A stretch of DNA of 51,721 nt from Streptosporangiaceae bacterium (GTDB taxonomy: Bacteria; Actinomycetota; Actinomycetes; Streptosporangiales; Streptosporangiaceae). Positions 2,096 through 39,941 of this stretch are shown piece after piece. The stretch spans positions 1-51,721 of the forward strand of contig JASHQA010000297.1 of assembly GCA_030037785.1 (NCBI GenBank), read 5' to 3'. Under the pieces are notes generated by a model. That model did no database searches, had not been told where the DNA came from, and was given only the letters and a program-made list of their open reading frames with translations. Positions within the stretch are counted from its first letter, which is position 1; each line of letters begins with the position of its first letter. A program made the position numbers and the translations under genes.

Positions 2096-2270
2096 GGCGA
2101 GGCATCCTGTCACACCTGCCCGCCCCGGTGAGCGTCCAGCTGCGTTGTGCGATGCTGCCAGCTGGGGTGGGCCGCTGACTGCGGTGCATGGCCGGCTGCC
2201 TGAGTGCCTGTTACTCCAGTGACGGGAGTGATTGCGCCATGGTACGACCTACGGTAGAAAAAGATGGGCA

Positions 2271-2324
2271 GGCGATGAGGCTCGCCGCTAACCGCGAACT
2301 TCGATTCGCTGATGGCCTCTACCA
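2271..2324 (+). promoter_or_regulatory. Fluoride riboswitch (crcB RNA), copy F1
   Basis: GGCGATGAGGCTCGCCGCTAACCGCGAACTTCGATTCGCTGATGGCCTCTACC: P1 GGCG/CGCC, P2 GCGAA/TTCGC, pseudoknot GAGGC/GCCTC; near-identical core to the Thermotoga petrophila aptamer. Confidence 0.95.
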
Positions 2325-13685: not shown

Positions 13686-13774
13686 GGCGCGCCGATGGGC
13701 TCCTGGCACGATGAGATAGCCGTGACGCGAAGCCGTCGTTCCCGGTGCGGCCAGCAGAGAAAGGCAGGGACGCC

Positions 13775-15049
13775 ATGGCAGTCAAGCCAGCGGTCATCAG
13801 CGCGGTGAGCGCACTGGAGATTCTGGACTCGCGCGCCCGGCCGACGGTGCAGGTGACGGTCACGCTCGCGGACGGGACAGTGGCCGTCGCCGGTGTGCCG
13901 TCTGGGGCGTCCACTGGCAGTAGGGAAGCGGTCGAGCGCCGGGACCGGGACGCCGACCGGTACGGCGGGCTGGGCGTGCTCGGGGCGGTGACGGCGGTCG
14001 GCGGTGAGATCGCCACGCGCCTGACTAACCGCGAGTGGGACGACCTAGCCGAGATCGACGCGGCGCTGATCGAACTGGACGGCACCTCGGACAAGTCGCG
14101 TCTGGGCGCGAACGCAATCGTCGGAGTGTCGATGGCGTGCGCCCGCGCGTTCGCTCGCGCTGAGGGGCGTCCGCTGTGGGACTGGCTGACCCCGGCCGGG
14201 GTAGCCCCGCGGCTGCCGGTCCCGCACTTCAACGTGATCAACGGCGGTGTGCACGCGCCGAACCCGCTCGACTTCCAGGAATTCATGATCGCCCCGCTCG
14301 GTGCTCCGTCGTTTCCCGAGGCGGTCCGCGCTGGCGCCGAGGTCTATGCGTCGCTGCGCGGCCTGCTCGCGGCCAGGGGACACGCGACCGGGCTCGGCGA
14401 CGAAGGCGGGTTCGCTCCGCAGATCGCCGAGCCGGAGGAGGCGCTCGGTCTGCTCGTGACCGCGATCAGCGACGCCGGCTACACGCCGGGCGCGGAGGGC
14501 GTAGCGATCGCGCTGGACCCAGCGGCGAGTGAGTTCCGCGGCGACGACGGCAGCTACCGGGTCGCCGGCCAGGCGCTGTCCGGTGCCGACATGATCGAGC
14601 GGTACGCGCAGATCACCGACAGGTTCCCGGTCTGGCTGATCGAGGACGGCCTAGCCGAGAACGACTGGGACGGCTGGGTGGCGCTCACCCAGCGGCTCGG
14701 CGAGCGTGTCACGCTCGTGGGCGACGACATTTTCGTGACGAATCCCGCAATCATTGCCGACGCCACCTCCCGCGGCGTCGGCAACGCCGCGCTGATCAAG
14801 GTCAACCAGATCGGGACCGTCACCGAGACACTGGCGGCGATCGCGACCTGCCGCGCTGGCGGGTACGCCCAGTTTGTTTCGCACCGTTCCGGCGAGACCA
14901 CGGACACCTTCATCGCCGACCTGGCCGTCAGCTCCGGGTGCGGCATGCTGAAGACCGGAGCGCCAGCCAGGGGTGAGCGAGTCGCCAAGTACAACCGGCT
15001 GCTGGAGATCGCCGCGGCCCGGCCCGCGATGCCCTACGGCCTGCCGTGA
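13775..15049 (+). CDS. eno: Enolase
   Basis: ALEILDSRARPTVQVTV, VPSGASTGSREA, HFNVINGGVHAPNPLDFQEFMIAP, IKVNQIGTVTETL, VSHRSGETTDTFIADLAV. Confidence 0.97.
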   Translation: MAVKPAVISAVSALEILDSRARPTVQVTVTLADGTVAVAGVPSGASTGSREAVERRDRDADRYGGLGVLGAVTAVGGEIATRLTNREWDDLAEIDAALIELDGTSDKSRLGANAIVGVSMACARAFARAEGRPLWDWLTPAGVAPRLPVPHFNVINGGVHAPNPLDFQEFMIAPLGAPSFPEAVRAGAEVYASLRGLLAARGHATGLGDEGGFAPQIAEPEEALGLLVTAISDAGYTPGAEGVAIALDPAASEFRGDDGSYRVAGQALSGADMIERYAQITDRFPVWLIEDGLAENDWDGWVALTQRLGERVTLVGDDIFVTNPAIIADATSRGVGNAALIKVNQIGTVTETLAAIATCRAGGYAQFVSHRSGETTDTFIADLAVSSGCGMLKTGAPARGERVAKYNRLLEIAAARPAMPYGLP

Positions 15050-19218: not shown

Positions 19219-19270
19219 CGGTAGAAGCCGTTAGCCGTCACGGCAGTTTTCAGGCGGGCCTCATCGCCTG
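19219..19270 (-). promoter_or_regulatory. Fluoride riboswitch (crcB RNA), copy F2
   Basis: Reverse complement CAGGCGATGAGGCCCGCCTGAAAACTGCCGTGACGGCTAACGGCTTCTACCGTG: P1 GGCG/CGCC, P2 GCCGTGACGGC, pseudoknot GAGGCC/GGCTTC. Confidence 0.92.
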
Positions 19271-19509
19271 AGAAGATCATACCCGCAAGCCCCTGCAGCG
19301 CGGACGCTGGCCGACCGGTGCGAAAGACGCACCCAGCTCTCGTGTCGGCGCGCCCGGCGCCCCCTGCCTTGCCTGGCGCAGACCTGGGACGGAAACCCGC
19401 GGCGCGCTGCTGTTGCCGACAGCACCGGGCCCGTAACGCGCGCCACGCCCGCCCCAGCAGATGAATGCTTTACCGGACGCGAAGCCGGATTTATGATCGG
19501 AAGTGCAGA

Positions 19510-19580
19510 CGGCGGAGGGGCTCGCCGTTAAATAGCGATAGCCGCCAACGGTCCCTGTCCAGCGCAGGACAGGGAGGCTG
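19510..19580 (+). promoter_or_regulatory. Variant crcB-like riboswitch candidate V1
   Basis: CGGCGGAGGGGCTCGCCGTTAAATAGCGATAGCCGCCAACGGTCCCTGTCCAGCGCAGGACAGGGAGGCTGC: P1 CGGCG/CGCCG, short P2 GCG/CGC, pseudoknot AGGGGC/GTCCCT, competing hairpin CCCTGTCC/GGACAGGG next to GGGAGG. Confidence 0.68.
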
Positions 19581-19988
19581 CATGCCCCAATGTTGGGCCG
19601 TGACTTCGGCATGGCCGCTACCGTCTCTCGCAGCGCGGCAGCCTGTCTTGCTGCGCCGCACAGCGCGTCGCGTGGCGGGACGGGCCTGGACCCCACCAGC
19701 TCGTTGGGCTTGGCCCGTTACCTCTGCCGAGCGCTCTCGAGGCCGTCGCTAGGGCTGACTCGCATCTCGTGCTCCTCGGCCAGCCGGCTCGGACTGGCCG
19801 CAAGCATGCACCTGCCGGCGCTTACCTAGTCGCGCGGCGAGCGAGTCCTCCGCACGCTGGCGGGCTTCCCGCGGCCGTCCAGCCGGGCGGGTTGCGCATG
19901 TCCTGCCGTACCCGCGCGCACCAGCTTTGTGCACTGCAGACGTGTCGGCCACCCTGGCCGACCGAAATAGAACAGGAGTGATCAGCAA

Positions 19989-20615
19989 ATGTCGACATCA
20001 GGTACTACCGGCGAGCAGGCTGAAGGCCAGTCGGCGCCTGCCCGGGCAGTAATGGCCAACCCCGCGCCGTGGGCCGTAACGGCGTTCGGCACCACCTCAT
20101 TCATGATCGGCATGTACCAGACGGGCATACTGAACTCCGCCGGGACCCCCATCGTGCTGCCTGCGGCCTTCTTCTTCGGCGGCCTCGTGCAGATCATCGT
20201 CGCGATCATGGAGTTCTCGCGCGGCAACCTGTTCGCGGGTGCAGTCTTCGGTACCTACGGGCCGTTCTGGGTGATACTGGGAGCATTCGACACGATCTAC
20301 GCGAGCAGCGTGCCGGCTGCGCAGCTCTCCTCGGCCACCGGCCTGTTCCTGGCCGTGTTCGCGGTGATCACGTTCTACCTGGCCGTCGCCTCGCTGCGCA
20401 CCGACCTGGTACTCACCGTGATCATCTGGCTGATCTTCGTCGGGCTGGTCCTACTCTCCGTTGGTGCCTGGGACAACCTCGCCAACGTGACCAAGGCCGG
20501 CGGCGCGGTCGTCCTGCTGTTCGCGGTGCTGGCCTGGTACCACGCCGCCGGTGACATCATCGAGTCCACCTTCGGCCGCAAGGTACTCCCGTTCGGCCCT
20601 GCGCCGGTCAAGTAG
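19989..20615 (+). CDS. satP: GPR1/FUN34/YaaH (SatP-like) acetate/succinate transporter
   Basis: NPAPWAVTAFGTTSFMIGMYQTGILNSAG...FFFGGLVQIIVAIMEFSRGNLFAGAVFGTYGPFW; SD AGGAG upstream. Confidence 0.9.
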   Translation: MSTSGTTGEQAEGQSAPARAVMANPAPWAVTAFGTTSFMIGMYQTGILNSAGTPIVLPAAFFFGGLVQIIVAIMEFSRGNLFAGAVFGTYGPFWVILGAFDTIYASSVPAAQLSSATGLFLAVFAVITFYLAVASLRTDLVLTVIIWLIFVGLVLLSVGAWDNLANVTKAGGAVVLLFAVLAWYHAAGDIIESTFGRKVLPFGPAPVK

Positions 20616-20734: not shown

Positions 20735-22567
20735 TCAGTCACCTGAGTGACCGCTAGGCTCATGGGTCGTGTCGCGGCCGCCACTCGTGCCTGCTCCCGA
20801 CGGCCGCGATGCTGTGGCAAGCATCTCAAGCAGCCGACCGAGTTCCTGCTGCCGCTGGGCCAGGCTGGCATCCTGCCCGGCCGCCTCTCCGGCGGTTGCC
20901 TGTCGCTGGGCCGCGGCTACGCGCAGTGCGTTCTCCAGTCGGCTCGTGCTGTCGGTGTAGCGGGTTTCGACGTCGCGGATCAGCCGTCGGGTCGCCTCCG
21001 CGAGCCGGTACTGGAGGTCGGCTCGGGCGCGGCCGATCTGCTGCGGTACAAGGTCGCCGGTTTCGCGGCGCAGATAGTCCCGCGCCCGCCGTCGGCCCGC
21101 CTCGCCGGGCAGGCGCCGGCGGATCGCTCCGGCCAGCAGTTCCGTCTGCCCTGCCTCCTCCCTGACCACGTAAAAGAACCGCAGGTCCGGCACCAGCCGG
21201 TCACCCGGACCCGGTACCGCCAGAGCAAGGCCGAGCAGCCCGGCGGCAGCATCGCGGACCGCGTCGAGCTCGGCCCGCAGTTCGGCAGCGAGCCGCGCGT
21301 CGAGCCTGGCCAAGCCGTCCTCCAGCCGTAGCGCCTGCTCCTGCCGCCAGGCCTCGGCTTCGGCGACGGCGAGCTCGCCGAGACGGACCCGCCCGGCACG
21401 CTCGATGTCGGCGGCTTGTGCCGACCGCACATTCGCGGCCAGCAGGCTCTCAATATCTGCGGTCACGCGGCGGGTGGCCTCCTTCGAGGCCTGCTCCGCG
21501 GCCTCGTTGAGGGCCGCCAGCATCCGGGCCGACTCGGCGGACGCCAAGTCCGCGGCGTCCTGACGCCGCACCGCGACAGCCGCCAGCCGCGCCTCGAACG
21601 CCTCCACCCGCCCGGCCGCCTCTCCGGTGCGCATCTCCGCCGCACGGCGGGTCAGGTTGGCTTCGTCCAGCAGCGAGCGAGCGAGCCGCTCCGCGTGACC
21701 GGCAACCGACAGCCGCAAGTCGGACGCTCGCCCGGACTCCAGATAGTCAGCGAAGTCGGCGGCGAACGCGGTGAATCCTGGATCTCCGGCCGCTGTCAGC
21801 GCGGCCCGCGCTGACAGCGGGTATAGCCGGACAGGCCGTCCCACCGCCTCGGCCGTAACGCTCGCGGCGAATTCGAGCGCCTCGGCCAGTTCGCTGCGAC
21901 GGTTCCCGTTCAGCCCACTGTCAATCGACCCGGCCGGCGGCGGGACATCAGGGGACAAGTAGTCCGCCTTGTTCAGCACGACGAACATGCGCACCGATAG
22001 CCGCGCCACCCGAGACATCAAGTCCCGCTCGCTGGCCGACACCGGCGGGTCAGCGGTGAGCACGAACACGGCCGCGTCCATCGTCTCCAGCGCCAGCTCC
22101 GCCTCGGCCGTGTTGTGGGCGTACACCGACCCCGTGCCAGGAGTGTCGACTAGCTCGACGCCGCGGGCCAGCAGTGGCGCATCGATGATCACCGTGACCG
22201 CCGCCAGCCCGCGCTTGTTGCTGGGGTTGCCCCGCTCGGTTACCAGGTCGTCCAGGGCTGACAGTGGATGGCTCTCGGCCCGGCCATCCCGCAAGAGAGC
22301 GGTCACGCCCTCGTCCGGCCCGTACCGCACCGCCGTGGCCAGCGCCGTCAGCGGCGTCACCCCAGAAGGCAGCACCTGTCGTCCCAGCAAAGCGTTGACC
22401 AGCGTGCTTTTGCCCCGCTTGGCTTCCCCGGCGACCAGCACACGGAGTCGGCGCTGCTGAAGCCGGTCATGCAGCTCCGCCAGCGCCGCGCGGTCGTGCG
22501 GGTCGGCCAGAGCGGACAGCCCGTCGAGCGCAACAGCCAGGACGTCGCCATCGTCAGGTGATCGCAC
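20735..22567 (-). CDS. Second dynamin-like GTPase
   Basis: P-loop GEAKRGKST, VDTPGTGS, VVLNKADYLS; GTG start with SD GGGAGG. Confidence 0.87.
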   Translation of the reverse strand: MRSPDDGDVLAVALDGLSALADPHDRAALAELHDRLQQRRLRVLVAGEAKRGKSTLVNALLGRQVLPSGVTPLTALATAVRYGPDEGVTALLRDGRAESHPLSALDDLVTERGNPSNKRGLAAVTVIIDAPLLARGVELVDTPGTGSVYAHNTAEAELALETMDAAVFVLTADPPVSASERDLMSRVARLSVRMFVVLNKADYLSPDVPPPAGSIDSGLNGNRRSELAEALEFAASVTAEAVGRPVRLYPLSARAALTAAGDPGFTAFAADFADYLESGRASDLRLSVAGHAERLARSLLDEANLTRRAAEMRTGEAAGRVEAFEARLAAVAVRRQDAADLASAESARMLAALNEAAEQASKEATRRVTADIESLLAANVRSAQAADIERAGRVRLGELAVAEAEAWRQEQALRLEDGLARLDARLAAELRAELDAVRDAAAGLLGLALAVPGPGDRLVPDLRFFYVVREEAGQTELLAGAIRRRLPGEAGRRRARDYLRRETGDLVPQQIGRARADLQYRLAEATRRLIRDVETRYTDSTSRLENALRVAAAQRQATAGEAAGQDASLAQRQQELGRLLEMLATASRPSGAGTSGGRDTTHEPSGHSGD

Positions 22568-22641
22568 CGCTGCCTCCCGCCACCATCAGGCAGGGACCGT
22601 TGGCGGCAGCGCCGCTGTTCCGGCGAGTCCCTCCGCCGTTC
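22568..22641 (-). promoter_or_regulatory. Variant crcB-like riboswitch candidate V2
   Basis: Reverse complement ACGGCGGAGGGACTCGCCGGAACAGCGGCGCTGCCGCCAACGGTCCCTGCCTGATGGTGGCGGGAGGCAGCG-GTG: P1 CGGCG/CGCCG, P2 GCGGC/GCCGC, pseudoknot AGGGAC/GTCCCT, CTGCCT/AGGCAG can mask the SD. Confidence 0.7.
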
Positions 22642-22757: not shown

Positions 22758-23141
22758 TCAGGACGAGCTCGCCGAAGGAGCGGACTGCGTGCAGCGCGTC
22801 GACAGTGACGCTCTGCACCCTGTGGCATTGCTTGTGCAGAAAACGACAACCACAGCGGCGAGCAAGGCTACCAGCGGCACCAACACGAGTATCACCAGTC
22901 CGGCTCGGCGCAGGATCACGGCTGGCTGACGCCGCAGCGTCCGCGTGCGTGTTCGCTGGGCTCGTCGCGTGGGGTCAAGCACCTGCTGCCACTTTGCCCC
23001 GACTTGCTCGCGAGCGGGCATCACCTCGTCGGCAGTCAGCAGCGTGAATGTATCCAGGAGACCGGCGAGGACGGGATCTGACACCGTCAGGCCTTCAGAG
23101 ATGCAGTCCAGCTCGCGGCGCTCGTGTGCGCTGAGAGTCAT
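22758..23141 (-). CDS. DUF3040-like small membrane protein
   Basis: MTLSAHERRELDCISEGLTVSDPVLAGLLDTF...; two hydrophobic residues blocks form a TM segment. Confidence 0.7.
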   Translation of the reverse strand: MTLSAHERRELDCISEGLTVSDPVLAGLLDTFTLLTADEVMPAREQVGAKWQQVLDPTRRAQRTRTRTLRRQPAVILRRAGLVILVLVPLVALLAAVVVVFCTSNATGCRASLSTRCTQSAPSASSS

Positions 23142-23194
23142 AGGGCCGCTCGCCCTGCGCACTTGGACGGCACAAAGCCGAGAGTCAGTGACAT
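23138..23194 (-). CDS. 18-aa leader ORF overlapping (ATGA) the DUF3040-like gene
   Basis: ATGTCACTGACTCTC...GCCCTATGA = MSLTLGFVPSKCAGRAAL*; preceded by GGTGGAGG. Confidence 0.5.
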   Translation of the reverse strand: MSLTLGFVPSKCAGRAAL

Positions 23195-23228: not shown

Positions 23229-23287
23229 AGGTAGAGGCCATCAACCTTGGTGACTAGGCCAGGGTGCGTACGCGAGCCTCATCGCGC
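23229..23287 (-). promoter_or_regulatory. Fluoride riboswitch (crcB RNA), copy F3
   Basis: Reverse complement GCGCGATGAGGCTCGCGTACGCACCCTGGCCTAGTCACCAAGGTTGATGGCCTCTACC: P1 CGCG/CGCG, P2, pseudoknot GAGGC/GCCTC. Confidence 0.9.
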
Positions 23288-23430
23288 AATGACATCAGAA
23301 TACACCGCTCGGCACCGGCTCCCGGGGCGCGTCTGGTGGCCCAGCGCGGCGGCCGTGCCGGCCGGACGCCGTCGGCTCGGTGTGTGCGGAGGAACCGGGC
23401 CCTATACTTGACGTACGCGGCTTGCCCGCA

Positions 23431-23537
23431 GTCCGGCGCTGGAGCCCGCCGGGGCGTTATGTGGTTCAACGCCCGATTGCCAGCGGGGCCGATGGCTCCT
23501 GCTTCGTGAGCGCGCTAGCGGCCCGAGGGGCAGGAGA
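23431..23537 (+). promoter_or_regulatory. Divergent crcB-topology leader RNA (element E)
   Basis: CCGGCG-CTGGAGCC-CGCCGG hairpin; loop GGAGCC (23441-23446) pairs with GGCTCC (23494-23499) preceded by CGAT; inserted hairpin GGGCGTT/AACGCCC; CTCCTGC can pair with the SD GCAGGAG just before ATG 23538. Confidence 0.6.
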
Positions 23538-23879
23538 ATGTCGACATCGGCGTCGAGACCGCTGCACCAGCCGAAACAATTCGGGCGCCTGTGGTGGCTG
23601 CCTTCTCGGGGGATTGGCAACGGTCTGACCGATGCTGGGTGGGCACCTCTCGCCGACATCGATGCCAGCATCGTCTCGCCGCTGCTCGCGGAGTTGCGCG
23701 CGGCGGGCGTAGCCGCGCACGCCGCGCCCGTAACCGGCCGGCCGAGCCGATCCCGCCAGCGCGGAACAGCTTCGGGCGCCCCTCAGTACCGCCTCTGGGT
23801 AGGCACGAGCGGCTACAGCCGTGCCGAAGAAGTGCTCCGCACGAGGATTCCCGCCCTCCGTCGGCGGGCTAGCTCATAA
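23538..23879 (+). CDS. Small conserved hypothetical protein
   Basis: ADIDASIVSPLLAELRAAGVAAHAAPV...YRLWVGTSGYSRAEEVLRTRIPAL; SD GCAGGAGA. Confidence 0.65.
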   Translation: MSTSASRPLHQPKQFGRLWWLPSRGIGNGLTDAGWAPLADIDASIVSPLLAELRAAGVAAHAAPVTGRPSRSRQRGTASGAPQYRLWVGTSGYSRAEEVLRTRIPALRRRASS

Positions 23880-23883
23880 CTGG

Positions 23884-24168
23884 CTACTCCTCGGCCAGCA
23901 GCCGGGCGCACACGCCGAAGAGCCTGAGGTCGGCGGAAGCCTCGGCCTGCCGGCCGAACGCCGCGATGTCGCCGCGCGTCAGTGACTCCCAGCAGGAGAC
24001 GTCCGCCAGCGCGATGGCCCGCTCAGCGGCTGAGACCAGGGCACTTGGCCGTCCATTCTCGACCTCGAGTTGCAGCCGCGCGACGTCCTCGGCCGGCCCT
24101 CTGCTAGCGACCGCCCGCAGCGCGCCGAGGCGCACCGACAACTCCCCGATGAGATATTGCCGCGTCAT
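23884..24168 (-). CDS. Hypothetical protein
   Basis: MTRQYLIGELSVRLGALRAVAS...; ATGA overlap with upstream NUDIX gene. Confidence 0.6.
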   Translation of the reverse strand: MTRQYLIGELSVRLGALRAVASRGPAEDVARLQLEVENGRPSALVSAAERAIALADVSCWESLTRGDIAAFGRQAEASADLRLFGVCARLLAEE

Positions 24169-24629
24169 GCCGAAGCCTCGGGCCGCCACAGGTTGGCCAG
24201 ATACGGCGCGTAGCGTCGGCCTGACTGACCGAGCATGCCGCGCAGGTGACCAGCCAGCGGCGGACGCAGGTCGAGATCCTGAAGGCTGGTCAGTGGCTTG
24301 AAGGCAGGCTGCAGGCCCGGCTCCTGCTGCTGCGGCTGCTGGCCCGGCTCCACCTCGCGCGCCAGGAACACCATGTCGACTGTCCGTGGGCCGCGCTCTG
24401 GTGCGAGCACCTCGAGCACGAACGCCACCCCTGCAGGATCTACGTGCAATCCTGTCTCTTCCCGCACTTCACGCCGGGCGCACGCGGCCATGCTCTCGCC
24501 TTGGCGCGGCGTGCCGCCGGGCAGCGACCAGATGTCGGCGGCACCGCCGACGCGGCAGACCAGCAGCACGTCGGTACCGTGCACAACCACGGCTGAGCAC
24601 CGCAGCGCTATGCCATCAGGCAGGCTCAT
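24165..24629 (-). CDS. NUDIX hydrolase
   Basis: Nudix box GGTPRQGESMAACARREVREETGL. Confidence 0.9.
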   Translation of the reverse strand: MSLPDGIALRCSAVVVHGTDVLLVCRVGGAADIWSLPGGTPRQGESMAACARREVREETGLHVDPAGVAFVLEVLAPERGPRTVDMVFLAREVEPGQQPQQQEPGLQPAFKPLTSLQDLDLRPPLAGHLRGMLGQSGRRYAPYLANLWRPEASA

Positions 24630-25300: not shown

Positions 25301-25600
25301 GTACGCCGCCACACCGGGTCCGTTCTGTCGCAGACGACAGGATCCATCGGCCATCAGGCAGGGCGGCTAGTCGGCAAACTGACTTCGAGCCAGCGACCGA
25401 GCTAGCTTTCGGTGGGATCCACCACCGAGTGGGCGCGCCACTGCCTTCAGCATAGATCACTTGCGGCCTCGTGCGTCGCTGGCAGCATGCCACCGCTTGC
25501 CGGTCCTGGACGAATCGATCTGCTGAGCCGCCCGGCGGGCGTCCCGGCGGGCGTCCCGCCGGGTTCTGGGCCGGACCGCGAAGTTCGGTTACGCTACACG

Positions 25601-25677
25601 CAGCGGCGGAGGGGCTCGCCGTAGTCTGCGGAGACGCCGCCAACGGTCCCTTGCCAGAGGGCAGGGAGGTTGGCGCA
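25601..25677 (+). promoter_or_regulatory. Variant crcB-like riboswitch candidate V3
   Basis: AGCGGCGGAGGGGCTCGCCGTAGTCTGCGGAGACGCCGCCAACGGTCCCTTGCCAGAGGGCAGGGAGGTTGGCGCA-ATG: P1 CGGCG/CGCCG, P2 GCGG/CCGC, pseudoknot AGGGGC/GTCCCT, CCTTGCC/GGCAGGG overlaps the SD. Confidence 0.7.
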
Positions 25678-27813: not shown

Positions 27814-28098
27814 TCACGGTCCGATCCGGGTGAGGTCCGGCGACAGCAGGTCGAGCAGCCTGCTGCACGGCCACGAGGCTCGCCTGCGCTCGGTCTCCGC
27901 GGTGGTCTCTTCCAGGCTGGCGGCCCAGTCGTCTTGCTGACCGTGCCAGCGAGGGCAGCGATCCTGCAGCGGGCAGTCGCTCCGAGCCGGATGACCGCGC
28001 GGACGGCAGCGAGGCTGGCGGCCCGACCGGAACGCCCGCAGCGATCGCCATAGCAGAAGAACCTCGTGCTCGCTCACCCTGGACATGACTGCCGTCAC
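27814..28098 (-). CDS. Small Cys-containing hypothetical protein, probably first gene of the V4 operon
   Basis: MTAVMSRVSEHEVLLLWRSLRAFRSGRQPRCRPRGHPARSDCPLQDRCPRW...; 24 bp upstream of the Cys/His gene. Confidence 0.6.
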   Translation of the reverse strand: MTAVMSRVSEHEVLLLWRSLRAFRSGRQPRCRPRGHPARSDCPLQDRCPRWHGQQDDWAASLEETTAETERRRASWPCSRLLDLLSPDLTRIGP

Positions 28099-28162
28099 CG
28101 CCTGTTCGCGGATAGGGACCGTCAGCGGCGGCTACCGCGCTTCGGGCGAGCCCCTTCGCCGG
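28099..28162 (-). promoter_or_regulatory. Variant crcB-like riboswitch candidate V4
   Basis: Reverse complement GGCGAAGGGGCTCGCCCGAAGCGCGGTAGCCGCCGCTGACGGTCCCTATCCGCGAACAGGCG-GTG: P1 GGCG/CGCC, P2 GCG..CGC, pseudoknot AGGGGC/GTCCCT, CCGC/GCGG over the start region. Confidence 0.65.
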
Positions 28163-28251
28163 GCAGTAAGTCTGGCAACGGCGGTGCCCAGCGGTCAAGG
28201 CCGCGCTGGCCGCCCCTTGTCGTGCAGCCGCTCCGCCGGCACAATGACGAT

Positions 28252-28306
28252 GGCGATGAGGCCCGCCGTAACCGCGAAACGAGACTCGCTGATGGCCTCT
28301 GCCTGG
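28252..28306 (+). promoter_or_regulatory. Fluoride riboswitch (crcB RNA), copy F4
   Basis: GGCGATGAGGCCCGCCGTAACCGCGAAACGAGACTCGCTGATGGCCTCTGCC; CTGCCT/AGGCAG would mask the SD of the next gene. Confidence 0.95.
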
Positions 28307-28781: not shown

Positions 28782-28910
28782 GCCGACGGGCTCGGTGCCG
28801 CGACCGCGGTCCGCGGCGTGGTCCTGAGGCCGGTCACGGTCACGCGACGCGCGGTCACGACACGCATAACGGGTACCACGCCCCAGACGTGATGTGTATG
28901 CTGGCCAGCA

Positions 28911-28965
28911 CGCGATGAGGCTCGCGTAGGCGTCAGGGCTCTTCCTGGCTGATGGCCTCTACCTG
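28911..28965 (+). promoter_or_regulatory. Fluoride riboswitch (crcB RNA), copy F5
   Basis: CGCGATGAGGCTCGCGTAGGCGTCAGGGCTCTTCCTGGCTGATGGCCTCTACC; P1 CGCG/CGCG, P2 CAGG/CCTG, pseudoknot GAGGC/GCCTC. Confidence 0.93.
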
Positions 28966-39885: not shown

Positions 39886-39941
39886 TCGTCAGGAGCCATT
39901 AGCCATCGCTGGCGGTCGCGCGGACGAGCCCCATCGCCTTC
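39886..39941 (-). promoter_or_regulatory. Fluoride riboswitch (crcB RNA), copy F6
   Basis: Reverse complement GGCGATGGGGCTCGTCCGCGCGACCGCCAGCGATGGCTAATGGCTCCTGACG; P2 GCCA-GCGA-TGGC; GCTCCTG/CAGGAGC would mask the SD of the MutS-like gene. Confidence 0.9.

Follow-up and report, generated by a model that had tools for sequence, protein, structure and literature searches.

Features of the locus

The window analysed here is the whole 51,721 bp stretch (positions 1 to 51,721) of contig JASHQA010000297.1, from an uncultured Streptosporangiaceae bacterium sequenced as an assembly of 461 contigs (GenBank accession number GCA_030037785.1). Between 2269 and 39940, it contains 12 fluoride-type elements in approximately 38 kb, which we refer to as the fluoride island. 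Seven have A-U at positions 6 and 38, four have G-C and one has C.C. The C.C element, which is the subject of this report, lies ahead of the gene for a 113-aa conserved protein (Table 1). Three other loci in the window exceed the Rfam cut-off, and six of the 12 elements are absent even from a relaxed Rfam scan of the whole window. About 12 putative switches in 38 kb represent a natural system in which to ask why there are so many sensors for one signal.

Table 1. Fluoride-type elements of the island and features of the leader of the 113-aa protein gene
Feature	Position	Strand	Remarks
Fluoride-type element, A6-U38	2269-2323	+	Before Hyc/Hyf-like complex 1
Fluoride-type element, A6-U38	19220-19270	-	Before MutS_V gene pair
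Fluoride-type element, G6-C38, A7/C41	19509-19559	+	Missed by Rfam
Fluoride-type element, G6-C38, A7/C41	22589-22639	-	Before dynamin-like GTPase gene, 20735-22567
Fluoride-type element, A6-U38	23230-23288	-	Before DUF3040 gene, 22758-23162
-10-like box TATACT	23406-23411	+	From sequence; equally placed box in orthologous leaders L018 and L019
P1 hairpin	23433-23452	+	6 bp; CCGGCG 23433-23438 / CGCCGG 23447-23452
P1 loop		+	8 nt, CUGGAGCC, between both P1 strands
P1-side core letters		+	C6, 23439; U7, 23440; G8, 23441
Pseudoknot 5' strand GGAGCC	23441-23446	+	Pairs with 23494-23499, 6/6; relatives show compensatory changes
Inserted hairpin between P1 and P2	23453-23473	+	GGCGUU 23453-23458 / AACGCC 23468-23473
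P2	23479-23489	+	3 bp; GCC 23479-23481 / GGC 23487-23489
Core	23490-23500	+	C38, 23490; A40, 23492; U41, 23493; G42, 23494; U48, 23500
Pseudoknot 3' strand GGCUCC	23494-23499	+	Within core
Anti-RBS segment CUCCUGCUUC	23496-23505	+	Overlaps pseudoknot 3' strand; pairs with 23527-23536 in MFE fold
Ribosome-binding region GAGGGGCAGGAG	23525-23536	+	From sequence; ahead of ATG at 23538
113-aa conserved protein, no Pfam match	23538-23879	+	Predicted beta-alpha-beta-beta-alpha (PII/DUF2007-like) fold
Fluoride-type element, G6-C38, insert	25336-25428	-	Before PAP2 gene; R1 score 36.3 bits
Fluoride-type element, G6-C38, A7/C41	25603-25654	+	Before HTH-containing ORF
Fluoride-type element, A6-U38, A7/C41	28111-28162	-	Before 94-aa conserved ORF, 27814-28098
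Fluoride-type element, A6-U38	28250-28303	+	Before universal stress protein gene
Fluoride-type element, A6-U38	28909-28963	+	Before Hyc/Hyf-like complex 2
Fluoride-type element, A6-U38	39888-39940	-	Before second MutS_V gene pair

Architecture of the leader

The leader spans 23433-23503(+), and the order read from the sequence is P1, inserted hairpin, P2 and pseudoknot segment. The P1, P2 and perfect 6 bp pseudoknot in crcB order described in the original prediction were read directly, with 6/6 pairs in the pseudoknot, and the equivalents of U7, G8, A40, U41, G42 and U48 were all located. The linchpin identities A40 and U48 are thus present (A23492 and U23500), as are the letters of the Mg2+/fluoride site (U7, G8, U41 and G42), these being identities in the sequence and not geometry. 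Positions 6 and 38 are, as had been claimed, both C (C23439 and C23490), and the reverse Watson-Crick A6-U38 feature of RF01734 is missing. The inserted hairpin had been given 7 bp; the hairpin is there, but the seventh pair, a G-C, uses G23452, which is also used by P1. The TATACT box upstream is probably the promoter of the leader.

With the crcB motif, RF01734, the element shares P1, P2, the order of the H-type pseudoknot, an 8 nt P1 loop, the letters U7/G8, A40, U41, G42 and U48, and a 5' leader position before fluoride-stress genes (mutS, formate-hydrogenlyase-like, crcB and pyrophosphatase genes in relatives). It differs in having C6/C38, with G6-C38 in most C38 relatives, in place of A6-U38, and in the long hairpin between P1 and P2. 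The RF01734 score is 23.3 bits (E = 6e-4 over the whole genome), under the gathering threshold of 34 bits. Apart from this threshold and the A6-U38 contact, the sequence-level features of the class are all present.

The low score, together with a z-score of 0.47 for the minimum free energy (MFE) fold of the leader, could be taken to mean that the likeness arose by chance in a G+C-rich region, with no regulatory RNA. The MFE structure holds an anti-RBS helix and not the pseudoknotted form, and the z-score is uninformative, because pseudoknots lie outside the model used by RNAfold; plain folding was therefore dropped as evidence. A descriptor requiring P1, P2, the pseudoknot, A40, G42, U48 and a few adjacent letters, and blind to positions 6 and 38, found 12 elements in the window, including the one at 23433, against a mean of 0.015 per dinucleotide shuffle (200 shuffles). 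In 621,558 bases, a set enriched for fluoride-type elements because the loci were gathered with fluoride models, the descriptor found 113 elements, with 0 in reversed decoys of equal size. Given these numbers and the conservation, with compensation, of the leader in relatives, the probability of a chance likeness is negligible, and we regard it as already refuted by the conserved leaders.

Conservation of the leader in relatives

The alignment of homologues' leaders proposed in the original prediction was performed. P1, the hairpin, P2 and the pseudoknot are retained in the leaders of 113-aa protein homologues in G003, G054 and G042, in the leader from G069, a more remote relative, and also at the Streptomyces locus L138. 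The conservation is accompanied by compensatory changes, including some in the pseudoknot and the inserted hairpin. The refuting outcome named in the original prediction, homologous leaders lacking a conserved P1 or pseudoknot, was thus not observed; these leaders support the view of a divergent fluoride-topology leader preceding a small conserved protein. Raw counts, which ignore shared ancestry, gave seven pairs changed on both sides in the homologous leaders and a covariation score of 0.281 versus 0.144 for shuffled alignments, and slid controls failed. A covariance model (R1) was built from the homologues' leaders, and a search of 342 genomes with R1 yielded some two dozen credible elements. 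For the pair counts in the R1 alignment, 0/500 shuffles attained the observed covariation and slid controls again failed, part of the element set having come from a model built on C38 elements. Some elements of the C38 subtype show a mismatch within the pseudoknot.

An insert of at least 20 nt between P1 and P2 was found in 34 elements and folds into a hairpin (mean z -2.2); in 30 of these, it is more stable than shuffled inserts (z < -1). The idea that the inserted hairpin defines a new class was rejected, as it also occurs in A-U elements outside the C38 subtype, one of them above the Rfam cut-off. These A6-U38 elements (for example L118, located at G041:C29, and L112 and L115, which precede crcB) share the position of the insert, the hairpin, the pseudoknot and the platform with the window element but, unlike it, retain A6-U38. 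As L118 exceeds the Rfam cut-off, the insert alone represents tolerated length variation.

The 6-38 contact

Among the elements parsed with the descriptor, which does not take 6 and 38 into account, the 6/38 pair is A-U in 73, G-C in 31, A.C in four and C.C in three, and G-U practically never occurs. An apparent G-U in L094 was a parsing artefact, this element being G6/C38 by eye, and L140, listed as a C.C element, was a descriptor false positive. The R1 alignment contains 20 G-C, 10 A-U and 10 other combinations. Because C38 elements had served to train R1, the count was repeated by a pattern search of 347 genomes of the phylum, in which position 6 was free and position 38 was C or U. Outside the genome of the window, 37 distinct A-U and three distinct G-C elements were recovered and no other combination, and the reversed control gave 0 matches. 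The parsed matches above the Rfam cut-off are all A-U (44/44). These 6/38 counts, too, are raw and ignore shared ancestry. C.C is found in this copy, in one copy from the same genus and in one Streptomyces copy, while the close orthologues have G-C (G003 and G054) or A.C (G042). Positions 7 and 41 were also considered as a covarying pair, with A7 matched to C41. This was rejected because the combinations A7/U41 and U7/C41 exist as well, and covariation is thus not strict.

Published structures show the 6/38 contact as A-U in reverse Watson-Crick geometry (A5.U35 in PMC8004769 and A10-U38 in PMC10687018) and A40-U48 as a reverse Hoogsteen linchpin (PMC8752731). In tRNA, the Levitt pair G15-C48 is a G-C pair in reverse Watson-Crick geometry (PMC3902895). 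The likeness is that a reverse Watson-Crick contact occurs as G-C; tRNA is a different RNA, and the analogy applies only to the 6-38 exchange. The tRNA Levitt pair also exists as A15-U48. The simplest reading is that G-C would be the natural ('Levitt') replacement of A6.U38, a single contact with two solutions. No report of G-C at 6-38 was found among the full-text papers searched, a set without the original 2012 discovery paper.

On this reading, compensating changes can turn A-U into G-C at a contact in the core of a well-studied riboswitch. The exchange would be evolutionary evidence, independent of the crystal and NMR work from which this contact has been known so far. The standard Rfam model misses the relatives because the A-U contact has been swapped for G-C. 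We consider that a covarying G6-C38 subtype that is invisible to the curated model outweighs the single copy in the window.

Ligand and gene context

In at least three genomes, at loci L213, L214 and L129, a G6-C38 element lies directly before crcB/fluC, the product having a CRCB Pfam match in L213 and L129 and being read by eye in L214; L215 is a probable further example. The Rfam scores of L213 and L215 are 15-17 bits, and L214 and L129 are not listed. The curated model thus misses G6-C38 switches even before crcB, an annotation gap that leaves actinomycete fluoride regulons undercounted. Another G6-C38 leader, L122, is directly before an inorganic pyrophosphatase gene, and at L107, in G005, a C6.C38 leader is followed by a MutS-like gene that begins with codons derived from the small-protein gene. 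Genes for MutS and formate hydrogenlyase are known to be associated with the crcB motif (PMC2864571), and those for pyrophosphatase and enolase with fluoride riboswitches (PMC11139923). Since G6-C38 leaders precede crcB/fluC, pyrophosphatase and PAP2 genes, and a C.C leader precedes a gene of the MutS type, fluoride appears to be by far the likeliest ligand.

In other riboswitch classes, changes at core positions sometimes mark a new specificity, and a riboswitch of the same fold could, with its changed core, sense another ligand here. This is highly improbable, given that the G6-C38 subtype is found directly upstream of CrcB/FluC and pyrophosphatase genes and that the window element is surrounded by canonical fluoride riboswitches. 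According to the published structure (PMC8752731), it is Mg2+ and backbone phosphates that hold fluoride; the 6-38 pair serves as a structural contact.

Genes without their own leader were also found. In G007, G008 and G027, the order is canonical fluoride riboswitch, MutS pair and, last, the small-protein gene. Judged from this arrangement in some genomes and from its own fluoride-type leader in others, the gene belongs to the fluoride regulon in either setting. The neighbours of the element in the window and the position in the MutS operon in relatives are both those of a fluoride-stress-regulon leader.

In L107 (G005:C361), the leader and the first codons of the small-protein gene are fused to the MutS-like gene, and in L110 (G027:C282) the leader is followed by a truncated gene. 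The intact small-protein gene lies elsewhere, behind a MutS pair, and leader and gene are thus, on the evidence of these arrangements, shuffled within islands.

Predicted switching mechanism

The segment 23496-23505, which covers part of the pseudoknot 3' strand and U48, pairs with the RBS at 23527-23536, and the duplex has a free energy of -17.0 kcal/mol. In 97 leaders, the mean for cognate anti-RBS/RBS duplexes was -14.45 kcal/mol, against -11.92 kcal/mol for swapped ones (permutation p <= 2e-4); start codons were assigned automatically for this test, and noise is to be expected from some wrong assignments. Translational ON control is indicated, because the 3' strand of the pseudoknot complements the RBS and covaries with it. 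When fluoride is absent, the anti-RBS helix would shut the start site. Binding of Mg2+-fluoride would lock the pseudoknot, the locked pseudoknot would withdraw its 3' strand from the anti-RBS helix, and the 113-aa protein would be made from the freed start site. For the step from fluoride to the opening of the start site, this model borrows from biochemistry established for the class.

Terminators that overlap the motif are common in the family (PMC2864571), and fluoride might accordingly act on transcription termination and not on translation. Here, however, the competing helix has the RBS itself as its 3' strand, AUG follows in place of a U-run, and cognate anti-RBS/RBS pairing exceeds swapped pairing, which makes termination control very unlikely. 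From the sequence comparisons as a whole, we conclude that the leader is a real, divergent fluoride-type riboswitch, a previously unrecognised variant, and that it very likely works like a fluoride riboswitch. More specifically, the element at 23433-23503(+) probably belongs to a divergent subtype of fluoride riboswitch and acts as an ON switch of translation.

As C.C is non-canonical and the orthologues mostly have G-C, the C.C pair could weaken fluoride binding and this copy may bind weakly. Taken further, C.C may have ruined any useful affinity for fluoride, the leader being a decaying relic that folds but does not switch. C.C is found in only three of about 111 elements, the close orthologues have G6-C38 or A.C, and the leaders in G005 and G027 precede rearranged or truncated genes. 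However, the pseudoknot (6/6), P1, P2, the hairpin and the anti-RBS helix are all intact in the window copy, as are the promoter box and the conserved ORF, and C.C recurs before the MutS gene in G005 and at the Streptomyces locus L138. Decay is therefore an unlikely explanation, and a working switch is preferred.

A further, improbable proposal is that C6.C38 forms a hemiprotonated trans Watson-Crick C.C+ pair, with A.C as a protonated analogue, and that the subtype reads both fluoride and low pH. We speculate that such a pair would suit the reverse-pair geometry. At low pH, fluoride enters cells as HF, so that an AND-like sensor would be useful; if the proposal is true, this fluoride riboswitch would carry its own pH gate.

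The 113-aa protein

Orthologues of the 113-aa protein that are 53-70 % identical were found in related actinomycete assemblies, several of them deposited as Streptosporangiaceae MAGs. Twelve members of the family were searched against Pfam and gave no match at E values up to 10. AlphaFold2 predicted a confident beta-alpha-beta-beta-alpha core (pLDDT about 90). The nearest solved structures to this fold are PII proteins (E of 0.4 or worse, TM < 0.45) and the structural-genomics protein 2hfv, presumably a DUF2007 member, none of them significant. Structure 2nnn was matched at E = 0.011, and the PDB search gave no significant match that would indicate a function. A longer actinobacterial membrane protein has an N-terminal domain similar to the C-terminal part of the 113-aa protein. 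From the small PII/DUF2007-like fold, a regulatory or adaptor role might be guessed. The position of the gene beside enolase, MutS-like, Hyc/Hyf-like, PAP2, universal stress and dynamin-like genes suggests that the protein is part of a fluoride-stress regulon, and an uncharacterised small protein family would thus be added to the fluoride response.

Other elements and genes

The enolase gene, a known fluoride target, lies within the island at 13745-15046(+), and no fluoride-type element is found directly before it. Contig C318 carries one more such element, upstream of a third Hyc/Hyf-like complex. A good anti-RBS helix is likewise present in the G6-C38 leader at 19509-19559; the only ORF in 19560-19989 encodes 56 aa, and a GPR1/FUN34/YaaH gene is 430 nt downstream. 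A sub-form with A7/C41, GGCGRAGGG...YRACGGUCCCU, is found at 19509-19559(+), 22589-22639(-), 25603-25654(+) and 28111-28162(-), and its A7 would touch the Mg2+/fluoride site. Two further small conserved proteins are tied to fluoride-type leaders, namely the 94-aa protein encoded at 27814-28098(-), with a homologue in L080, and a 101-aa protein encoded at 23884-24189(-), with a homologue behind a C38 element in L119.
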